A stretch of DNA of 64,000 bases, from the NCBI RefSeq assembly GCF_014633365.1, contig NC_068351.1, positions 15,134,907 through 15,198,906 of the forward strand, written 5' to 3'. Made by a program: the position numbers and the translations under genes. Source of the DNA: Diospyros lotus. Taxonomy: Eukaryota > Streptophyta > Magnoliopsida > Ericales > Ebenaceae. Below are positions 2,736-53,100 of this stretch, one piece after another (the first letter of the stretch is position 1; each line of letters starts with the position of its first letter). The notes beneath the pieces were generated by a model. It was not told where the DNA came from. It saw only the letters and a list, made by a program, of their open reading frames with translations, and made no database searches.

Positions 2736-3429
2736 CTTATCGATTTGACCACTTATAATCTATTAGTGAAGCTTAAACGTTATATAGTTTAATTAGTTAC
2801 ACGTTTGTTAAAAATTAAAGAGTTTAAACATTGTCAAGTTTAAATGTTATTTGACAATGTTTTAGAAAATCTCCCCTTAGCTTTTCTCAAAATGTTGTAA
2901 TGGGAAAATAGAGTTGACTAAGTATTTTACAATTTTGTCTTCCAACAATTATGATATTTTAATATTAAAAAATTCAATTATAAACTATCATTGCCCTTCA
3001 TCGGTCTGCCCTTCTCTCTTTCGTCACCTCTCTTCATCTCTTTCATTACCACAATCAATTTATAATTTATTTTTATTAAAAATTAATATTTTTATGAATT
3101 TTATTTATATTATTCAATAACATGTCTATTTTAATATTTTTTTTAAATTTTGATATTTTATTAGTTTTTTCAAACTAAATACATAATTATATAAATGACA
3201 GCTTAAAATACATTTATCTAAATACAGTATCAACTTAAATGCTAATCAATTTTAAACCTTTACATAGTTTTTAAGTATACATTTTTGTTCTGTTGTCCGC
3301 ATTAGGTTTGCCCGACACAGGCATGTAAGGGGGGTGGGGCCTACGCCCCTCTCTAATTTTGCTTGCATCAGTTACCTAACGTAGACAAAAGAATGATTTC
3401 GTTTAAGTAGAAGGCTTAAAAGCCATCTT
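2736..3429. other. Intergenic, nothing recognised
   Basis: AT-rich sequence with no supported gene. A short GC-rich patch at about 3298-3355 (ggggggtggggcctacgcccc) stands out but matches nothing recognisable. Confidence 0.4.
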
Positions 3430-3716
3430 AAAAAAATAGGAAATTTGGAAAAGTAGGACTCCCGATACTAAACTTTGGAAAAATAGGACATTTTGAAAAT
3501 CTTTGCAAAACTAGGACTTTTAAAAATTGATTGGACAAAGATGCACTCACTTTAAATCAACGATAGGATATGTTGTCTTCTTTTCTTCTTTTTTCATGAA
3601 CATTCTCACTCGCCAAAGTGTTGATGGTTCTTCATCATTTTTCAAACCCATTGTTGTTCTTCTCTAAGTGTTGCTGCTTTCACACATTAATCATTTTCTC
3701 TCCATATAGGTAGAAC

Positions 3717-38176: not shown

Positions 38177-41100
38177 GGGGGAGGGATTGGAAATACTGCA
38201 ATTATTACCCATCAGCCAACTGATGCTGGGCTATTGTTGGCATCTGTCACTTTCCCATTCAATCCAGTTACTGTGGATTTAATCAAAAATTCAACATTAG
38301 AAGATTGAGTTATGAAATTTGGAACTTGACAGAACTGTATGTCACGATCCCAAGGATATAATAGTCATTGTATAACAGATGTATTCCTTTGTTGTTGTAT
38401 TTTGTTGCTTTCCCTGTTTGTACCTTTCAGTTGTTCTAATAACTGAAAGCCTAGAAAGCCTATAAATAGGCTAGAACATAGAGGATTGAGGAGTTGATGA
38501 ATGATAACAGATTGTTCTCTCTCAAATTCTCTCCCTTTCTCTCAGTTCTCCCTGATCTCTCTCTGTTCTCTCTGAATTTCTCCCTCCCTTTCTGATCTAT
38601 CTCCCCCGATTTCTTCCAAATTCAACCTAGGTGCATGACACTGTAAGCTTTGAGTTTTATTCTAGCAATGCATTCCAAGCACTTCTTACTCAAGCCAATG
38701 AACTCTTACATATCCACGTTGAGTATATAAACTTCAATCTCATTTTGTTGATGGGAACTTGATTACTAATCATTAATCAATGCATCTCTAAACAGCTTAC
38801 AGTTCCCAATAAAATTGTCATACAGCCAGCATTCCTTTGACATCTATTCTAACTCATATGCCACTACTGCAATTCCTACTGAAACATTAAGATGCAATTG
38901 GATATGTTATGTAGTCTGGGTGTTTTATTCACATAAATTCTCAAGATATGTATAATTATAATAGAATGAAGAAATGATGACTTCAATGTCACTCTAACTT
39001 CTTAAGACAATTTAAAAGGTGAAATGAAAGTTATTTTCAAGAAAAAAAAGAGGGAAAATGCTATTGGTACACCTTTGTGTACACCTTGGGCTACACAAAG
39101 GTGTATCAATGACAAAAATATCCCTCTGAGGCGCATAGAGGCGCGTGAAGCGCATGGAGAGGCGCAGGGTATTTTTGTCATTGATACACCTTGTGTAGCC
39201 TAAGATGTACAAAAATGATGTACATGTAGCATGACTCAAAAAAGAGTGTCAGAAAAAAGTGCCTTGTGCAAGGTCAGACAAATCTAACATGGAAGGGGAT
39301 GGCTACAACTATTCTAGAGGAATAGAAGCTATTTTAGGAGAGTCAAAAAGGGAAGCTCCAAACCGAAAGGAGTCATGGAGTTGGAGTGAGGTAAAAGAAA
39401 AAACAAGACCAAAAAAATTTGCTATAAGATTTGGCATACATGCCCTAATGAGGAAATTGGAAGATGTATATTTTAGCCAAAAAAGAGGGGGAAAAGGCCA
39501 TCAAAGAAACAATATCAAATGCTTCTGAAAAATTGTATGACCAACTTGACACAAAAAGACAGAGAAAGAAATATATATTAGTTGGATAAAGAAAGAGAAA
39601 GAAAAACAAGATATTTAAGCAAAGTAAATTATTTAAAAGGTAACAACCAACAGGTACTGATAGAGAAGGGGCAATAAAGAAAAGATGGAAGGAATATGTC
39701 TCGAAGCTATTCATGTCCATGTGTGATCAGTAGTTTTACCATTGGGAGTAGCTTAGTAGAACTCTGGTGCTGACAACAGTACTGCTGGCCAAAGTGTAAT
39801 ACGTAGGCAAATGACTCGGATTTACTCAGTGTCCGTATTGGTACACATGGCCTATTGTATGATGTAAGTAGTTGAAAGACACTGTCACTCATGGACTAAA
39901 GCACCACTTGCTCTTCTCGTGTTTTATTAGATATTTTCTTTACACAAACATGATAGAGATGTTTTCTTTATGTTAATAATTATATTAAGTTACCCTCACA
40001 TGTCACATCATTTCTTGTTCACTTGGCTCTTTTACTCTGCATCATCTTTACCCTAGTGGCATAGTATACCTGTTTATTACTGGATCCTTGTAACTCACCC
40101 CACATAACCATTATTTCTTTTCAGGTTTTTTCCCTGTTTCTAGTAACAGTATCGTCTTTGTACAGTTTTTCCTTGACCATCAAGTACATTCTTGCATAGG
40201 CATGCTCTGGGATGTAAATACATTTTGTTAGGAGAGACCATTTATCCACTTGTACATATTCTGACTTCTATACATTTTAAATTTTCATATATGAGACATG
40301 GCGAGTTTCCTCACCCAGATATCATGTATATACAGTTTCCCATTTCTATGCATGGCTTACAGATTTCTCTTCTGAGAGATGTGCATGATGCATTTAGCTC
40401 ATAGCTTATCTCCTTATGCCTTAATGTATTTCCTCATCAAAGATTACAAATGGTAGATCCTCAGATCACATTTTGTGAATCCTATATCATATATTCACTG
40501 CCTTATGTGGAGTAAGTGAATCACAGTTCATTCCTAAACCATATAAGTCTGACAACTTAGTAGCAAAGGATTTCATTCAAGTTTTACGTTTGTGAAAAAC
40601 ATTTCTATTGAAGTGGATAAGTTTACCCAGCTGAGGTTCAATACACGTGGGATCCATCCAATTCTCTCAGTTATATAATCACTTTGCTATTGTCTCATTA
40701 GTAGGTCACATTTTAGAGAAGTTAAGAGTACCCTTAAGTCTCCACCTCATATATCTTTATCCACTTCTAGATTGTCCTCACAATAGGTTTGTTGAACCCA
40801 TGGTGGGTCCCATGCTTATATCAAGATCAAAGTCAATCATGGACCCCATTTCTAGGTTGTATGTAAGTACTAGCCTTTTCTAGTAACAAAACCATTACAT
40901 GAATGGCTAGGCAGGTGAGCTAGACAGATGGGCTCTGATGGAATCAATTGTCATATACCTGGGGGCATACTGTAATAAATAAAATAGTGGGAAGACGACG
41001 CTATAAATCATTGTATAGGGGCAGTAGTGAGCTATGTACTTAGGCGGTTATTTTGGTGGGAGATGTAGCATGTGAAGGAAGGCTGTAAATTGTGGCCGAC

Positions 41101-44100
41101 CTTATTCTTTGGGGCTATGGAGAATTTTGAATGAGAATTTGAATTTCCCTCTCAATCTACTTCTCCATTTCTGTCCCTATTCTTCTAATTCTTTCCCTCC
41201 CTTTTGCAAGATTCTTCTCGTTCTTGCTGTGATCTCTACCATTCGAAAGAGATCAGTTCTTAAAACATTGTCGGATCCATGCAGGTCTAACAATTTGGTA
41301 TCAGAGCCGAATTCTGGGACTCGCGAGCAACAAAGACGACAATGGCTGAAGGCACACGAATGAAAGGACTGGAGGCTCAAGTGCAGCAACATGGATCCTC
41401 AATGGTGGGTAGATCAATTGGAGTTGGGATCGAATAGGAACCATGAGGCGATCATATGGATAGGAAACTAGATGTGGTGGTAACACAGATCTAAGAGGAG
41501 CTACAAGGATTTATGGTGATGTTTGCAAGGCAGCATCAGGTGAGCATTCCACCTAATTTTCCCCCTCGAGAGAGGACAGATTCGATTCTACTCGAACAAG
41601 GCGGAACGAATCCTATGATACCAGGGAGAAGAAGGAATCCGAGGACCACTGAGACGTCGGTTGGGGAAGAAGATCAGGGTGAACTAGGGGAACAGTGATC
41701 AGGGTCGAAACAGCGACAAAAGGCGCCGGTAAACCACAATCCGCATGGTTTACCCATGCCGAGGCTAGAAATTCCCTTGTTCGATGGGACCAATCTCCGT
41801 TGGTGGATTAGGAGGTGTGACAGGGTGTTCGAGTGGTATGGAGTGGCAGAGAGGCAAAAGATAGCAATAGCAGCAGTGTATCTTAACGATGCCAGGGACG
41901 CTTGGTATCAAGGGTGGTCCAAGGTCTAGGAATTCTACGGGTGGGAAGAATTTGTAGAAGAATTTTGCGAGAGATTTGGAGATCGGGAGCTATCTGATGT
42001 GGTTAAAGAATTTAATAAAATCAAACAAGTTGGAACGGTGATGGAGTACCAACTTAGGTTTGAAGAGTTGAAGGCCTTAATGCTCAACCACAACCCCTTC
42101 TTGACCGAGGCTTATTTTGTCTCAAGCTTTATAAGTGGCTTGAATGAGGAATTGAGACCCCTAGTGAAAGTGCTAAGGCCACATACCCTCAAGCATGTTG
42201 CTGACAGTGCTAGGCTACATGAGGTGGTGATGGAAGCACTGATAAAGAAGCAACGAGCAGTGAATAGGAGTGTTGCCCCAATGAATTCACTGCCTGGCAA
42301 GAGTTTTACCAAGGAGTGGGGACGGGGATCCCCGGGCATGAAGAACTTGGCGCTACCGGCCCCCAACTCCCAAGGAGGGAAAACCATGGAACAAATGAGA
42401 CAAATGATATGACCCTAGGGATTGGCTAGGGTTTAGGAAGGGAATTTGGAAGATATGGAGGGAGATTAGACTGAAAGAGAGGAAGAAATAGCAAGTGTTG
42501 GAGAAGATTTACAAAGAGAAAGAGAGAGAATGGAGGGAAATTGAGAGAGGGAAAATGGAATTCAATTCATTCATTAGCTCACTTCCTCTAACTACTCAAG
42601 CCTATTTATAGGCTTACCATTGAAGATGCTAACAACAACAACAACAACAGAAAATGCAACTAATAAGGAAAATACATGATATGTATTACTAATATATTTT
42701 TAGGGTTCCTTGGGGTCGTGACAATCCCCACCCCTTCAAGCAATTCTTGTCCCCAAGAATTGACAGTTGTTGACCACGCTCCTCAGCCGATTCCAGCTTT
42801 AACAATGTGGTTTCTTCTTCACCTTTTCTTGTACTTATCTCGTATTCTCCTTTTCTTTTGCCTTTCCCTGTCTTTTTTTCCAAAAATAGTAGTATTAGGA
42901 TTTGTTGCAACACCTATTTCAGCCATCCACCCATTCCTTGTTGCTCTCAAAATTAATTCTAGTTGATCGGTCACGCCTTCCACCCTATCCTCTCCAACAG
43001 TAGAGAGTAATTTGAACTACTTTGCAGGCCAAAACCTGATTCAATGCTACTACTCTCCCATGGAAATATAAACAAGCAAAGCAGCAAGAGCCTCGTTTCT
43101 TTCCACAAAAAATTCCTCCACCATCTCCCCAGCATCTGCTCCTTCCTCATCTTCAGTAGAGGTCTCCTTTATTGGGGTATCTCTTCCTTCCTGCACATAT
43201 AAACTGTGATTCCCACCTACCTCCTTGCTAGATTTTTTTGTTACAATTGGCTGGTCCAACTCCAAGTTTTCCTCAAATTCGTGTTCGACCTGATTTGTAG
43301 CCATAGAGGCTCCTCCAATCTGTTGGCTGCTCTCAGTAGATCTGTTAGGTTGTAGTTCATTCTTTCTAAATATGGCTTCCAAGGCTCGTTCTTGATCTCT
43401 TGCTTTCTCAACCGCTTGTTTCACAGTTGCAAGCATCATCATCTTAACCAATGGTCTCAATTCGTCCTTCAGACCTCTAATAAAATTGGAGACAAAGTAT
43501 CTCTCCGTTAACGCAGGTTGCAAGGTCAACATCAAAGACCTTAATTCTTCAAACTTGTCCTGATACTCCATCACCGATCCGACCTGTTTAAGTTTATGAA
43601 ATTTGTCAATCGCTTTAGTCATTAACTTCTCTCCAAACTGGTCACCTCGATCCTCCACAAACTCAATCCAATTAACCTCCATTTTAGTTGAAATACTGAC
43701 CAGATACATCCTAGCAAGCCAAACCAGCATTTCATCCATTTGATCCAGCGTTTGCTTGAAGTTAGCGCAACTTTTCTCCCATGATTGCACATCAGTTTCC
43801 TCAGTTCCTCTTGAGTTGAATCCAGCAGATCTTCCCATAGAGAAATGCTGAGACTGCATCATAGATATACTATTATCATGAAGCTGTTCTTTTTGGTACA
43901 AGTCCATGGCATAATCAGCATTGCCACCTATGAATCCTGGTAAAGCCGGAAAATCTTCATTGCTGAACTCTTGGTTTTGCTGCACAATGGGACTAACTCC
44001 AAGGCCTTGTTTACAAAGTGAACCCAATTGTCCTTGAGACCCTCCAGTAGAACTAGGATGGCTGGTTAGCAAGACATGGCTTTGAGATAATGGCCCCCCA

Positions 44101-47100
44101 GCAGTTGGATAGGAGTTTCCTAGCATAGAGATCACCTGCGAAGAAGCTTGTTGAAGTACACCACTAATTAATCTGTTAGGGACTTGAATACTTAAATTTC
44201 CAGAGCCACTGTTGGCAACTAAATTTAGGCGAGAAGCAAGACCAAGCATAGATAATCCTCCACCATAACTCATGCTTCTCCCGATGCTTCCTCCACCTGC
44301 CCTATTTCTCATTGAACTAATTATTCGAGGACCAGCATTTCTCAGAATTGGAGACATTCCAAGTCCTGGAATAGCACTACGGTTACCCATCGCAATTGGT
44401 AGAATGCTAGGCATAGAACCACCAACTCCATTATTGCTGCTACTATATCCAGGGCTTCCAACAACACCAATTCCACCTCTATTTGGCATGCTTGTGTGAC
44501 CATGTGAGCTTCCAATTACCTCATTACAACAGCCTCTTGATCAGCTTCCAAGGACCACTCCGGAAACTTATTCCGGTACTCAAATTCAGCAACCTTAGAT
44601 TCCAAAAGGCTGGATCTGAATCAGCCTTTAGTTGCTGCTGATGGCCTCCAAATCAATTACCCTTCAAACAACCTGCTGGCTCCGGTTCATTTCAGCAGAC
44701 AACCTGTCCTAATCAGTTGTTGATTGAATCTGTTCAGCCTCCAAATTCACCGGAACACTGAAATTGCTTCAATAAATCGCCAAGACCGACTAATAATCGA
44801 TCGCTTCCAATCCACAACCTTAGCAGCTTCAAGTTCAGTCAATCTAACTTCGCTGGAATCTAAATTCAGCAACCTACTCCGCCTCAATCACTGCTAAGAT
44901 AGCTTTGGGAGCTGCCGGAATTCCGCCAAATTGCCTAAATTCACCCCTCGATCGTTTTCGATCGCACCTTCCTTCCCACCTCGGTCCCATGTAGTGACCT
45001 AGACCGGTTCCGAGAGTCGCTTCCCTTGCGTTGCCTGCAATTTCGACCCTCACTGATCTGCCGAGGACCATCAGATCTGTTGTGGCTAAGTTGTCACGAT
45101 CCTGCTTTGCTGCAATCTTCCTAAGGATATGATTGGTTTTTGTGGCTGCCAAAAATCAATCGGAATACGTTGATCAATGTCGGAACTCTCCCGACCCGCG
45201 TCGTCTACAATTCCGAGCCGAAATTGCTTTGATCGACTTTGCCTTCCCAATCCGAGTTCAACTCCGGCTTGCAACTGGTCGCTATCTACTCACAACCAAC
45301 GCCAGTCAAGATCCGCAGTGGATTCGCCACCCAATCACCGTCCACTTCAGCTTGCATCGTCGAAAATCGTTGCTTCTTCCCAAACTTACTGCCAAGGATT
45401 GTCGGAATCAACGCCACTTCCGAAAACACATACTGCCTTGATCAGTTCTGCAATCTATCGTCTAAAATCGCCTGCTGCTATCGGATTCCATAGTAGCCTT
45501 CAAATTTCAAGAGTTAACCTCCGTGGGACAGCAGATGTCGATCCATCAGAGATTAATCAATAAAGAAAGCCGCCGAGAAACGGTGGCTCTGATACCAAAT
45601 GATATGACCCTAGGGTTTGGCTAGGGTTTAGGAAGGGAATTTGGAAGATATGGAAGGAGATTAGACTGAAAGAGAAGAAGAAATAGCAAGTGTTGGAGAA
45701 GATTTACAAAGAGAGAAAGAGAGAGAGAGAATGGAAGGAAATTGAGAGAGGGAAAATAGAATTCAATTCATTCATTAGCTCACTTCCTCTAACTACTCAA
45801 GCCTATTTATAGGCTTACCATTGAAGATGCTAACAAGAACAACAACAACAAAAAATGCAACTAATAAGGAAAATACATGATATGTATTACTAATATATTC
45901 TTAGGGTTCCTTGGGGTCGTGACACATGCGAGCCTCTGTTTCAAGTGTGGAGATAAGTACTATGTGGGACATCAATGCAGGAAACAACTCTGGTTATTAG
46001 AAAGGAAGGAAGGGGATTCAGTGGAAGAGGAGGAAACAACACACACACAAGAAGAAGAAGCAGACAATGGGGAGATATCCCTACATGCCCTTGAGGGACT
46101 CACCAACAATGAGATAATTAAGGTGGAAAGGCAAGTGGAGGAGAGTAAGCTGATGATCTTAACTGATAGTGGGAGTACCCACAGTTTCTTGGATGAGAGG
46201 ACGGCTAAGAGGTTGAAATGCCCCTTGATTCCCACTCAACCATTAACAGTGACAGTGGCTAATGGGAATAAGGTGATGACAAAGTCTGCGTGTGCAGGGT
46301 TCTGTTGGAATGTGCAGGGAGAGGGATTCGAGGCCGATTTAAGGCTACTAAAATTAGGCTACTAAAAATGTTAGCCCAATTTGTTTTGACTTTAACAAAA
46401 TGGAGGGGACATTCGAGAAAGAGGCAAGGAAGATGACACTTAAAGGCAACAAGGAGGTGGGGGTATGCAAGATGATTACGGGCAAGGGGTTACAGAGGCT
46501 ATTCAAACACAAGATGAACCAAGTGGCTCAGTTGTTCTTTGTTCAGGCCACGGAGGAAGGAGAAGAGGAGCTAATTACAGAAGAGGGGTTCATATTAACC
46601 ATCAAAAGTTCATCCACATCCAACACTAAGGTACATCATTTTGATCTACTTAATATACTCCTAGTTGAATTTGAGAATTTATTTGTAGAGCCTCAATCTT
46701 TACCCCTAAATTGAGCCATTGACCACACCATCAACCTAAAACCCCACACAGAACCTGTTAACATTCATGCCTACCGATACCCTTCTAACCAGAAAACTAA
46801 GATTGAAAAATCGATTAAGGAGATGCTCCACAAATCCCTCATAAGACCCAGCCACAGCCTTTTGCATCCCCAGTGTTGCTGGTGAAAAAAAAAAAAAAGA
46901 TGGTTCCTGACAATTTTGTATTAATTACCACCAACTTAACGAAATAATCATCAAAAACAAATTTCCCATCCCACTCATTAATGACCTACCAGATGAACTT
47001 AACCATGCCACTATCTTCTCTAAATTGAACCTGAGATCTAGATACCATCAAATCTGGATAAACCCAATGGGCATTTCCAAAACCGCATTTAGAACACATC

Positions 47101-50100
47101 AAGGCCATTATGAGTTCCTTGTCATGCCCTTTGGGTTAACAAATGCCCCGGCCACTTTTTAATCTCTAATGAACCAAATTTTCGAGCCATACCTCAGAGA
47201 TTTTATTCTTGTATTCTTTGATGATATACTTATATACAACCCAACCTTTGAACTCCACCTAAAACATTTGAGGACTAAATTTGAAATTCTTAAGATCAAC
47301 AAGTTGTATATTAAGAGATCAAAGTGTGCCTTTACACAAAGCCAGATGGAGTATTTGGGATATATCATATCGGGCCAAGGAGTGAGTACGGATCCAAAAA
47401 AAGTGGCTACCATGACCAACTGGCCAAGACCGACGACTATTAAGGCCCTAAGGGGTTTTTTGGGATTAATCGGTTATTATAGAAGGTTTGTGAAGGGGTA
47501 TGGTGGCATAAGTAGGCCACTTATAGATTTATTAAAAAAGGATAGCTTTGAGTGGAATCATAAGGCAGAAGCCGCTTTTGAATCACTAAAGAGAGCTATG
47601 AGTGAGGCCCCAATGCTCGGTCTGCCTAACTTTAGCAAAACATTTGTCCTGGAGACAGATGCGAGTGGAATGAGCATAGGGGCAGTGCTCATGCAAGAAG
47701 GCAAACCCTTAGCATTCACAAGTCAGGCCCTAGCTCCAAAACATATGGGTCTCGGTGTGTATGAAAAGGAGTTGTTAGCCGTTATTTTTGCAGTAGAAAA
47801 ATGGAGGCATTATTTGGAGGGAAACCAGTTTATTATAAAAATAGATCATGAGAGTTTGAAGTTTCTACTACAACAAAAACTTCACACCCACTTGCAGAGG
47901 AAGGGGATGACTAAACTAATGGGCTTGGACTACACAATACAGTACAAGAAGGGGAAGGAAAACATTGCGGCAGATGCCTTGTCTAGATGCCCTGAAGACG
48001 AGACAGTTGCTGCTATCTCAGCTCTGGTTCCAGAGTGGTGTCAAGAGATGGCTAAGAGTTATGAAGGGGACAAGTAGACCAAAACTCTTTTGGAACAACT
48101 AATAATTGCTCATGCAAGTAAAGTGGGGTATATGCTGACAAATGGGGTGATCAGATTCAAAGGTAGACTGGTGGTTGGAAACAGCATAGAACTGAAGCAT
48201 AGGATACTGCAAGCCTTACATGAATGCCCCCTTGGTGGCCACTCCGAGGTCCAAAATATTTATCACATGGTGAAGCAACTGTTTAGGTGGCCTAAGTTGA
48301 AAGAGGAGGTGATGAAGTTTGTCATTGCATGTGATGTGTGCAAGAGATGTAAATATGAGACTGTGGCCTATCCAGGGCTTTTGCAACCACTGAACATTTC
48401 GGGGCAGGCATGGGAGAGTGTTTCCACGGACTTCATTAAAGGGCTTTCAAGGTCGGAGGGGAAGGACTGCATATTTGTGGTGGTGGACAGGTTCTCCAAA
48501 TTTGCCTACTTTATGGCCCTTACTGACCCTTACACAACACACGAAGTAGCTCGGGTTTTCTTAGATCAAGTGGTGAAGGTGCATAGGGTACCAAAGACCA
48601 TAGTGTCAGGCCGAGACAAGGTTTTCACTAGCCTTCTATGGCAGTTGCTAATGAAATCATTGGGAGCTAAGCTAAACCTCTCTTCTGCCTATCATCCTCA
48701 AACTGATGGGCGGACCGAGAGAATTAATCAATGACTCGAAACATACCTCAAGTGCCTTTGTTTCACGCACCCAAAAGGCTAGCATAAGTGGATCTTAGTC
48801 GCATAGTGGTGGTATAACTCCTCCTACCACAGTGCCATTAAAATGACACCCTTCGAGGCCCTCTTTGGCTACCAACCACCCTTATTACCAGCCCTTTCAA
48901 GATCTACCAGCGTGGTTGCGGTGGATGAACACCTGCAGCAAAGGCAACAAGTCCTTTAACAACTAAAAAGGGACTTAGCCATGGCCCAAAATCGGATAAA
49001 ACAAATGACGGACAAAGGAAGGAGTGAGAGAACATTCAATGTGGGTGAGACAGTCTACCTTAAGCTAAAGGGACCCCATCTCAAATCCTTAACTACAGGC
49101 CCTATCTCTAAGTTGAGCCCCAGATACTTTGGTCCCTTTCCCATTTTGGCTAAGATGGGACATGTAGCCTATAAACTACAACTACCGGGGGGAACTCAAA
49201 TCCACCCAGTATTTCATGTGTCGCTGCTGAAGAAGTTGGTGGAGAATCAACCGATCAGTGCCCAATTACCCCAGAACACCCTTGACTCTGAATTACCCCC
49301 AGAACCAGCTACCATTGTAGATCACAGAGTCATTTATCAACATGGAGCCCCAATCATGCAAATGATGGTACAATGGTCCAGCATGCCAACCAATAATAGT
49401 ACTTGGGAATACCTCGCGGACTTACTTAAGCAGTTTCCAAGAGCTGCTAGTCTCCTAACTATTTCTTGAGGACAAGAAATGTCTCAAGGGGAGGGTATTT
49501 GTCATGTACCTGGGGGTATACTGTAATAAATAAAAATAGTGGGAAGAAGACGCTATAAATCGTTGTATAGGGTAGTAGTGAGCTGTGTACTTAGGCAGTT
49601 ATTTTGGCGGGTGATGTAGCATGTGAAGGAAGGCTATTAATTGTGGTTGACCTTATTCTTTGGGGCTATCGAGAATTTTGAATGAGAATATGAATTTCCT
49701 TCTCAATCTACTTCTCCATTTCTCTCCCTATTCTTCTAATTCTTTCCCTCCCTTTTGCGAGATTCTTCTCGTTCTTGTTGTGATCTCTACCACTCGGAAG
49801 AGATCAATTCTTAAAACATTGCCAGATCCTTGCGAGTCTGACATCAATCTACTCAAAAAAAGGGTGCACTCAAATGAAGAATTCGCACAGTACAGTTGCT
49901 CCAAGCTTATGTTATTGCATGACCTCTAAATGCAAGCAGTGCATGTGTTTCGTCGAGCTAGAGATTATGCTGGCAATCTGCCTGCCAAATGACAAGGCAA
50001 ACACATGGGTGCATATGGAGAATTTCATGGCATAGGAGGCTGACCAAAAACAATCATGGCAGAGTCACCCACATTGAACTATCCAGCAAAGCAGTGCTCA

Positions 50101-53100
50101 GACTAGATAACAATGATGACTTTGGTTTCCTTTCCTTTCCTTTCTTTTTTTCCTATTTGACAAATTGTAGAGTGACATGGAAGACATCAAGTGCACACTA
50201 TACATGTATAAGTGATCAACCAAAAAAAAAAAAAAAATCAAATTGCTATAAAAAAATAAGCTCTAGTCTTCAAAGAAGCACCACCACCACCAATAACAAC
50301 ACCAATCCTTAATCCCACAGAAGCACCAAACTAGTCTTTTCTTTTCTTCCCTTTTATTCTATTCATGTTACTTATTTCTACATATTTCTCTTGTTCCTAC
50401 GAACTAGTATGTCTCCACAGGTTTCTAGAGGAAATTTTACTCCCATTGGCAATGAAAAACACTTTCAAAGCAATAAAAAAGAAAAAAATCATTCTAATCC
50501 AAACAGAAACAAATCTTTTCACACTTGAAATAAAGCAAAATGTTTTTGCACATTTCTCTTATTCCAATACGTTACTATTTCTGTGTAGGTTTCTAGTCGA
50601 AATGTCACTCCCATAAACAATGACAAACAGTTCAATAGGGCATCCCAGGCTCTCCGTTTTGTGAGAGTCAAGAGAGAATTGTATTCCTACGTAGTCTCAC
50701 CCTTGCTTTGAAATGATATTGTCTCCACAACTTAAACCAGTGACCTCCCAGTCATAAACAAGTAACCTTACCATTGCTACCAAGGCTCACCCTCATATCA
50801 AACAGAACAATATCATTTGAGTTCAAATAGAAACATAAGTTTTCACTAGAAATGTTCTGAAAATTATAATCATTAACCTCATACCGAAGAACATTTTTGT
50901 GACTGGTATGGTGTTTAAAGAATAATGATATTGATGCATTTCACCATACCATTTTAGAGTCATCACTATTAATATTGTGTACTTAAAGGCAAGTACAAAA
51001 ATTTAGTTACATAATTTGATATCATGTAATTTTCCTCAAGCACAAATATATTCTAGTTTTAATGCATTATCTAATACATATTATTCACTGCAAATATATT
51101 CTAAAAGATTTTAAAGCAATATATAATTTACCACGAGGATATTAAGAAATTAAATCATAAAAATGATGTTGAGAATAAAATAATAGTACAACAAATAAAG
51201 TTAACTCTCTATCTAACAACTTAAGCTTTTAGATGAGATAGTGGTTAACAATTCAACATGGTATCAGAGCAGGCATAAGTCCTGAGTTCAAACCTCACTG
51301 CCAACCCAATGTTTAAATTATTACACGTTGTTTGACTAGTTATTAGTGAAGCCTAGCCACACTTGAGGGGACACATTGAGAGTAAACTAATAGTATAAAA
51401 GGTAAATTTAACCCTCTATCTAACACCTTAACCTTTTAGATGAGATGGTAGTTAACAATTCAACAAAAACAAACTGGCTCCACAAATCTAATAGTACTTT
51501 TTTTCTTAAGTCCACCTTTCTACTTGGACGAATATGATATAATTGTTCCTATCATTTGTAATACTTATGGAATGCTAGTTTATTCAAATGGCTTGTGACC
51601 TCCATATATGAGTGTGTGTATATATAAGGTTGGACCCAGCACGTTTGATGTGTGGCTATACAGTAGGCACGCAATACTGGAATTTGTTTCCACTTTTTAT
51701 AGTGGCTGCATGTTGGACAGAGTTAGAATCATGAATTCCTAGAGTTTAGCTAGATTATTCAGTGGAAGGGAGTCCAAAAGTGAGACCCGCAAGAAATAGA
51801 CCCTACCTTTCAAACAACTTGTCAATTTACTTGTTGCCAGTATCACTCCAAAACTGTCTGGAGCAGCCAGAATAGTTTGTAAGAGCTGGTAAAATAGCAG
51901 GGATGCGCAGGGAGGCAAGGAGAGGGTTGGGAAAACAGAGAGTTTGATGATATTTCCTCAGTTTGTTTCGTTACATGAATGTTCACTTGCAGAAAAATGT
52001 ACAATCTAAATATATCACCATGGTCAAATAAGAAATGAGAAATAAGAATCTTATCAGGTAATGAAGCTATCCTCACATTCAGTGCATGCAGAGCTGCCAT
52101 TGCTGATTGATGATTAACAAAGGTGGCAAAAGCAACAACCTGCAAAAACATGAAATGAAACCTTCAAGGGGCTATCTCCCAATATAAACTCCAGACTAGC
52201 AATTGAAGCTTGGAATATATATTTACATGTTTGAGAAAAAAAGGAAAGGAAAATGTACAAACAAGACAAATCACTTTAGAGATAAGAGATTGTACTGGAG
52301 AAATAAACAAATTAGGCATGGTTAGAACTAATGGAGCTTCCTCTAGCGGAGTCTAAAATAAAATATCAAACAATATTCCTAGACGAGTGAAAATGCAAAT
52401 TCATTTAATAACATCTAAGAAAAACCTTATCATAAAGCATCCGACAAAGTGAAACACATCTAAATGAATGAAGAAAAGTTTATATACATAAATATTATAT
52501 GTTTGCCCAAAAGAAAATAGTCAATGAACTTTGCATATGAAACTGAAGGTTTGCAATTATTCCAACAGGTTTGGATAAATTTTGTGTAGCTGTCAAATGT
52601 TATTCTTTTTTTCTTTTTTCTTTTTTTTTTTTTTTTTTTTTTGGGGGGGGGGGGGAGAGTGGGGGAGAGTTATTTGACATAAGAACCTGTCAAGTTTGGA
52701 ACAAGTTTTTTTCCATTTATTTATTTGATATAATAATCTGTGACCAGCAAAAAAGCTTAAAATATCAAGAACAGTGAGAAACTGCCTCCCTACATCTTAC
52801 TGCATATTCAATAAATCAAGAAAAAGTATGTTTCTTTGGCATGCTAAAATGTTATTACTTTGTGGCAACTCTCATCATGTCTAGATTGGTCAATTTCTGT
52901 TACCTTTATAAGGCTTGCCCCCATTTTGGCATTTTTTTTCCTAGTACGTTTTGTTTATCAAAGAAAAAAATTAAATTGACTTTCCCAATCACACCCCACA
53001 TAGTGGGGTAAAGACTTGGTATGTATGTTGTTGACCTTCCGAATCATAAATTGATAGTGCAGGTGTCGTGTGATCAATGTCCAGCAACAATGCTAAGAAC

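Follow-up and report, generated by a model that had tools for sequence, protein, structure and literature searches.

In a 64,000-nucleotide stretch of the Diospyros lotus genome (contig NC_068351.1, positions 15,134,907 to 15,198,906; here called the window), we analyzed a long terminal repeat (LTR) retrotransposon that carries a piece of the host gene NOT2a fused in frame to a remnant of gag. The element has two LTRs, one long open reading frame (ORF) and no pol, and it occurs in about 20 copies with a common 5' breakpoint into spliced NOT2a RNA. Its gag half holds the capsid C-lobe only, and its NOT2 half decays freely in changes private to single copies. In our judgment the window element, copy L001, is probably one member of a non-autonomous, gag-only Ty3/gypsy family resembling TR-GAG elements, in which the NOT2 half is mainly a passenger. 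Two results are new here, namely a second, independent capture of the paralog NOT2b and the placement of the window copy in a recombinant lineage.

The element is 3.5 kb long with LTRs of ~320 bp and is inserted in the gag of an outer plus-strand Ty3/gypsy element (Table 1). Its ORF list contained no pol ORF between the LTRs and no ORF of the size of protease, reverse transcriptase, RNase H or integrase, and Pfam found none of these on the element's ORFs. Two further ORFs of at least 100 aa lying wholly inside the element (102 and 128 aa, plus strand) had no Pfam match. An autonomous element was rejected because no pol-sized ORF lies between the LTRs. Eight ATGs were present within the 1085 leader bases scanned (44514-45598).

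The first-pass annotation, made from the letters of the window alone, had reported an intact 479-codon minus-strand frame, and the frame is present, with its ATG at 44489, its stop at 43050-43052 and an upstream extension open as far as 44540. NOT2 homology starts 8 codons ahead of the ATG. The claimed NOT2/VIP2 similarity of the first half was confirmed by protein searches, in which the best of 744 matches to the fusion was D. lotus VIP2 (P0002; E = 4.3e-101, 75% identity, 47% of the query); a chance similarity was rejected on this E-value. Among the 120 matches listed of the 744, all those with informative names were plant NOT2/VIP2, query coverage reached at most 49%, and none of the listed proteins contains the fusion. 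A search of solved structures with the fusion returned nothing significant (best E = 1.1). A 43-sequence tree placed the captured piece as sister to D. lotus NOT2a with an ultrafast bootstrap of 100, on a branch of 0.157 compared to 0.008 for the host NOT2a protein. The piece contains neither the NOT2_3_5 C-terminal domain nor the NOT1-anchor region, which we would expect of a functional NOT2; the NOT module of solved CNOT2 structures maps to host residues 489-664, outside the captured part. The excerpted text of PMC6751215 places the VirE2 binding site in the C-terminal NOT domain. Because the NOT1-anchor/NOT-box region was not captured, recruitment of CCR4-NOT, as earlier proposed, is unlikely. 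Some other role of the low-complexity NOT2 piece may exist and is not made unlikely by the loss of the NOT box.

The donor, NOT2a, lies in the same genome at C3:29256543-29267487, and 19 copies of the element differ from it by 5.7-9.0%. The captured piece is continuous across three exon boundaries of the host gene, those closing exon A (residue about 229), exon B (301) and exon C (335), and no intron remnants mark these positions in the copies. Since at least three host NOT2a introns are absent, the source was a spliced RNA, in agreement with the first-pass annotation. In the excerpts of PMC8198034, class I NOT2_3_5 genes in cotton have 10-15 exons. The 5' homology edge fell 8 nt inside host exon A in 13 of the 15 copies aligned; in the other two, L003 and L010, the local alignments opened 13-15 nt later. 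An identical NOT2a 5' joint was found in L055, which has a different gag. Homology across the host junction upstream of exon A, as the tblastn ranges from residue 94-97 had suggested, was rejected by the start of the DNA alignment inside that exon.

An internal block had been noted as missing near residue 139 (numbered from the ATG), and we found it to be 29 codons entirely within host exon B. Besides L001, 14 of 18 copies lack the same 87 nt, with the joint CAG/CTAACC in 13 and TAG in 1, and the L001 joint reads TTG. L011, L013 and L017 have lost more sequence, up to the same 3' end, and L029 retains the block. An exon-skipped source mRNA, the alternative splicing that had been considered, was rejected, as the block lies inside one host exon and is retained in L029; splicing within the exon may still apply. 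The two deletions have a common 3' end before CTAACC and start in the host after CAG, one at GT and one at GC, and an almost identical gap occurs in a Morus protein. Splicing inside the exon, in the captured mRNA or in the element RNA, rather than random deletion, is a credible origin to which we give somewhat less than an even chance, but CAG at both ends also fits template jumping, and the block is still present in L029. Either intra-exon splicing or template jumping between CAG repeats may account for the loss.

The second half had been described as a gypsy GAG; it is a Ty3-type gag according to Pfam, homologues and fold, but only the capsid C-lobe is present, without an N-lobe. The Pfam matches, Ty3_capsid (E = 3.5e-6) and Retrotrans_gag (E = 1.6e-4), were both just below the Pfam cut-off, and the former spans profile positions 74-188 of 198. 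One protein search returned 1 gag homologue and another returned 57. The AlphaFold model of the gag half had predicted local distance difference test (pLDDT) values of 85-96 over model residues 61-150 and 76-81 just ahead of them. Foldseek gave no match with E <= 0.001; the best were the C-lobes (CA-CTD) of PEG10 (0.0035) and Ty3 (0.13), and the Arc and Ty1 capsid lobes, Ty1 p22 (0.83) and Drt2 (1.3) ranked lower. Among related D. lotus proteins, P0134 and P0138 contain the N-lobe stretch and P0128 and P0138 the CCHC knuckle, both missing from the fusion. All five gag-only relatives fetched have the tail and 3' end without NOT2, which suggests that NOT2 replaced an older gag N-terminus. The LTR and tail recur at 41 matches in the genome.

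A search for further copies with the same fusion had been proposed; a genome search for the element gave at least 96 matches, and we sorted the NOT2-bearing ones into about 20 loci. Three of 20 copies (L001, L004 and L055) have neither a stop nor a net frameshift across NOT2 and gag; in L004, gaps of minus 4 and plus 1 jointly keep the frame. The first-pass annotation had named stops in most copies as a point against its reading, and this was partly borne out: stops occur in the NOT2 part of 8 of 19 copies (11 stops at 8 positions), and 13 of 19, by our own tally, are damaged there by a stop, a frameshift or an insertion. The gag part had 29 stops at 17 positions in 14 of 19 copies. At 20 of the 25 stop positions L001 reads CAG, CAA or CGA, and some of these stops occur in several subfamilies. 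This bias is what methylcytosine decay would give, and the copies are therefore probably silenced. With rates of 1.3e-8 and 7e-9 per site per year, the LTR ages were 1.1-2.0 million years for L001, 0.75-1.4 for L002, 0.4-0.7 for L004 and 1.1-2.0 for L055. L055 (C8:4734025) has a 560-codon open frame, a gag of a different subfamily and LTRs 97% identical; minus-strand gypsy ORFs lie on either side of it, and it has a 5-bp target duplication, CTCTG. Two other copies are interrupted, L017 by 885 nt of further sequence and the NOT2-bearing copy at C14:27159206-27163983 by ~3.3 kb between its two pieces.

Mosaic structure was examined in 200-base windows along L001. The leader (positions 401-1400) was 88-96% identical to L003/L005 and 74-82% to L002/L004, the latter windows being only partly alignable. 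At the 3' end (2801-3521), identity was 92-96% to L002/L004 and 73-87% to L003/L005. L006 was 88-95% similar to L001 over the leader and 3' end alike, which places L001 in a recombinant lineage with a group-B leader and a group-A 3' end. In trees of the two halves, L001 grouped by NOT2 with L006 and the L003 group (support 100) and by gag with the L002 group and L008 (support 91).

Selection was examined in alignments limited to columns present in the reference copy and to sites covered by at least 8 copies (NOT2a family) or 6 copies (NOT2b family); medians over copy pairs were taken from pairs with more than 15 changes, and L055, which is outside the NOT2a-family alignment, was compared separately. 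The NOT2 half had a pooled omega (Ka/Ks) of 0.93 over 342 ordered pairs of 19 copies; gag had 0.98, CA-CTD 0.73 and the tail 1.42. The Ka/Ks of the NOT2 part, to which the first-pass annotation had pointed, therefore indicates no constraint over all pairs; a hint of some comes from the shared changes weighed below. In the control, exon A of host NOT2a and NOT2b, omega was 0.27 and changes at codon positions 1/2/3 numbered 12/6/37 (p = 3.6e-7). Variants shared among copies were distributed 34/38/41 in NOT2 and 54/49/44 in gag. The NOT2 half of L055 compared to the 19 copies gave 1.05. Private changes in the NOT2 half, polarised by the host gene, gave 1.29 (100 nonsynonymous, 25 synonymous and 5 stops; expected 93.8, 30.2 and 6.0).

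The capsid C-lobe is constrained between subfamilies, and the tail is not. Omega of CA-CTD between subfamilies was 0.44-0.50 in pairs with L055 or L001 and 0.32-0.77 in other pairs, while that of the tail was 0.72-1.80 over pairs and 0.72-1.12 in pairs with L055 or L001. The single pair L055-L001 gave 0.46 for CA-CTD and 1.24 for NOT2. Within the family, shared CA-CTD changes gave 0.80 without codon-position bias; the omega of CA-CTD depends on the reference copy (0.55 with L001, 1.07 with L002), and we used the all-pairs figure of 0.73. If the protein has a function, the C-lobe is the part most likely to take part in it.

A related family has independently captured the paralog NOT2b. The same genome contains about 23 loci, by our own grouping, with NOT2 residues within about 6-205, on C2, C12, C9 and others, of which 16 were examined (L053, L054, L056-L068 and L046). 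In L053 and L054, one ORF comprises a gag N-terminus, NOT2b residues of about 6-192 and a tail. When the other loci were aligned to L053, 13 of 15 started within the first 8 nt of the ORF and ran across the gag-NOT2 joint; L059 and L065 aligned only from nt 236 and 274. All six loci compared with both paralogs were nearer to NOT2b (pieces 82-97%) than to NOT2a (71-89%). Two host introns were plainly absent in five of the six, and in L046 the first is blurred by a tandem repeat. Codon positions showed no third-position excess in this family, and the NOT2b part showed a deficit (p = 0.006). The LTRs of L053 are 91% identical over 376 columns. The capture of two paralogs by related families surprised us most, be it coincidence or the effect of a cause.

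For the origin of the NOT2a family, we suggest that element RNA and spliced NOT2a mRNA would have been packaged together in the particle of a helper, where a template switch by reverse transcriptase may have replaced the older gag N-terminus with NOT2a residues of about 106-374. Helper proteins would move the product in trans, further template switching would reshuffle it, and the NOT2 half would mostly be a passenger, on which some constraint perhaps acted during the spread of the family. Several points weigh against this explanation. Shared changes in the NOT2 half, polarised by the host, gave an omega of 0.55 (62 nonsynonymous, 35 synonymous and 0 stops; expected 70.9, 22.2 and 3.9), which differs from the private value of 1.29 (Fisher p = 0.009). 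Several classes were tested, however, with a mutation model that has no methylcytosine context, and changes that arose repeatedly may have been counted as shared. A clean target-site duplication was not seen at the flanks of the window copy (42405-45924), and no autonomous helper was identified in a search confined to LTR/tail relatives. Without polarisation, the NOT2 half gave 1.43 for private and 0.54 for shared changes (p = 0.0009). Constraint on shared changes was not seen in the gag half, where the direction was opposite (private 0.75, shared 1.27, p = 0.18), nor in the NOT2b family (private 1.22, shared 1.28, p = 0.62). We take these values as a hint that some constraint may have acted on the NOT2 half during the spread of the family, followed by free decay after insertion.

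Selection may also have acted on the captures themselves. Related gag-only families would then have taken both NOT2 paralogs independently as in-frame Gag partners, NOT2a before the C-lobe and NOT2b after the gag N-terminus, with the NOT2a piece kept by selection during the spread; the cause would lie in RNA (preferential packaging of NOT2 mRNA, or small-RNA shielding) or in a low-complexity NOT2 module that aids the Gag stub. We consider this possible, if unlikely. It is unlikely, too, that the protein acts through its capsid C-lobe by co-assembling with helper Gag, so as to aid packaging or to block it like yeast Ty1 p22. The modeled fold is CA-CTD only, with the restriction factors p22 and Drt2 among the Foldseek matches, and CA-CTD has lower omega than the tail in pairs with L055 or L001 and than NOT2 in the pair L055-L001, but the Foldseek E-values are weak, the constraint may be older than the loss of the N-lobe, and the values within the family (0.73 pooled, 0.80 shared) come without codon-position bias.

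Camouflage at the RNA level appears quite unlikely. Near-identity to an important host mRNA would make small-RNA silencing costly and favor repeated capture of NOT2 paralogs, an idea published for gene-capturing elements (excerpts of PMC13317346). Each of the 19 copies contains 32-176 21-mers identical to host NOT2a exons A-C, with a longest run of 103 nt, the NOT2 piece is in sense orientation, and two paralogs were captured; yet the stop positions suggest that the copies are probably silenced, the two captures may be chance, and NOT2b-family copies have fewer 21-mers in common with NOT2b exons (7-84). A working NOT2-Gag protein, whose NOT2 half would recruit CCR4-NOT or other decay factors to the particle or hinder the host in degrading element RNA, is very unlikely: L001, L004 and L055 keep the frame open, and shared NOT2 changes have an omega of 0.55 and include no stops, but the solved CNOT2 structures and the VirE2 site fall outside the captured piece, frames are intact in only 3 of 20 copies, all-pairs omega is near 1, and neither the gag half nor the NOT2b family is constrained in shared changes.

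The comparison of shared and private changes led us to hold the explanation by a non-autonomous family with a passenger NOT2 half as probable where it had been highly probable, to raise the working NOT2-Gag protein from extremely to very unlikely, and to move the selected double capture slightly upward within the unlikely range. The element is a datable instance of an LTR retrotransposon taking up a host mRNA, for which one genome provides the donor gene and its introns, the breakpoint, the copies and the recombinants. Captures from two paralogs make it directly testable why certain host genes are captured, and separating shared from private changes allows one to ask whether captured sequence brought a benefit at the time when the element still moved.

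The features of the element and its surroundings are listed in Table 1. The primer binding site is of tRNA-iMet type. Elsewhere in the window, positions 38456-38623 are ~71% like the LTR of the inner element and may be an old relative, and a direct repeat pair of 90 nt (51169-51258 and 51376-51465) is 87% identical and 207 apart.

Table 1. Features of the NOT2a-carrying element and the element surrounding it, in window coordinates.
Feature	Coordinates	Strand	Evidence
Whole inner non-autonomous LTR element (copy L001; recombinant lineage)	42405..45924	-	LTR pair, primer site, polypurine tract, copies, mosaic similarity
5' LTR of inner element	45600..45924	-	312/326 alignment columns identical to other LTR
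Primer binding site TGGTATCAGAGCC	45585..45597	-	read from sequence
Leader, group-B type	44541..45599	-	sequence and mosaic comparison
Only long ORF (479 codons), comprising NOT2a fragment, gag remnant and tail	43050..44489	-	ORF list
Captured NOT2a piece, intronless (host residues about 106-374 of 666)	43803..44514	-	protein and DNA alignment
Joint left by the missing 87 nt of host exon B (29 codons)	44069..44070	-	alignment; copy L029 retains block
Coiled gag N-terminal remnant	43671..43808	-	alignment with P0122; long helix in AlphaFold model, pLDDT 71-81
Capsid C-lobe (CA-CTD)	43338..43670	-	Pfam, AlphaFold, Foldseek
Low-complexity acidic tail in zinc-knuckle position	43053..43337	-	also in related gag-only elements
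Polypurine tract adjoining 3' LTR	42724..42739	-	read from sequence
3' LTR of inner element	42405..42723	-	repeat search, LTR alignment
Outer degenerate Ty3/gypsy element, LTRs 40948-41292 and 49499-49843, 91% identical	40948..49843	+	repeats, Pfam

The element is best filed as TR-GAG-like with gene capture of the Bs1 kind. LTR elements are described with additional ORFs and captures in the excerpts of PMC7264820, and a literature search confined to open-access papers found no LTR element with a captured NOT2. Like the TR-GAG elements in the passages of PMC8704663, it comes from a plant, is bounded by two LTRs and has gag as its single ORF, without pol, and a primer site and polypurine tract are present here; according to the same passages, one such element transposed in an Arabidopsis ddm1 mutant. 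It differs in that gag is cut down to the capsid C-lobe and tail, with a piece of a host gene in place of the N-terminus. A complete GAG with N-lobe and CCHC knuckle, a requirement of our own since those passages speak only of a single GAG ORF, was not found in the element. The stand-alone CA-CTD fold without an N-lobe recalls the Ty1 p22/p18 and Drt2 restriction factors, with weak Foldseek E-values here, whereas the present protein is of Ty3/gypsy lineage and is fused to a low-complexity NOT2 piece. In the excerpts of PMC13317346, maize Bs1, among the first cases of gene capture in plants, is an LTR element whose hybrid ORF includes parts of host genes, and camouflage is named as a possible benefit. 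Here, too, host coding sequence lies between LTRs in a hybrid ORF, and it derives from spliced RNA, but Bs1 took from three host genes, whereas this element took from one, NOT2, has Ty3/gypsy gag relatives and occurs in about 20 copies. Maize Sireviruses, Helitrons and Pack-MULEs, in the same excerpts, are also mobile elements with host sequences and a possible small-RNA conflict; in contrast, the captures described here are intronless, are in frame with gag, and were made twice, from two paralogs.

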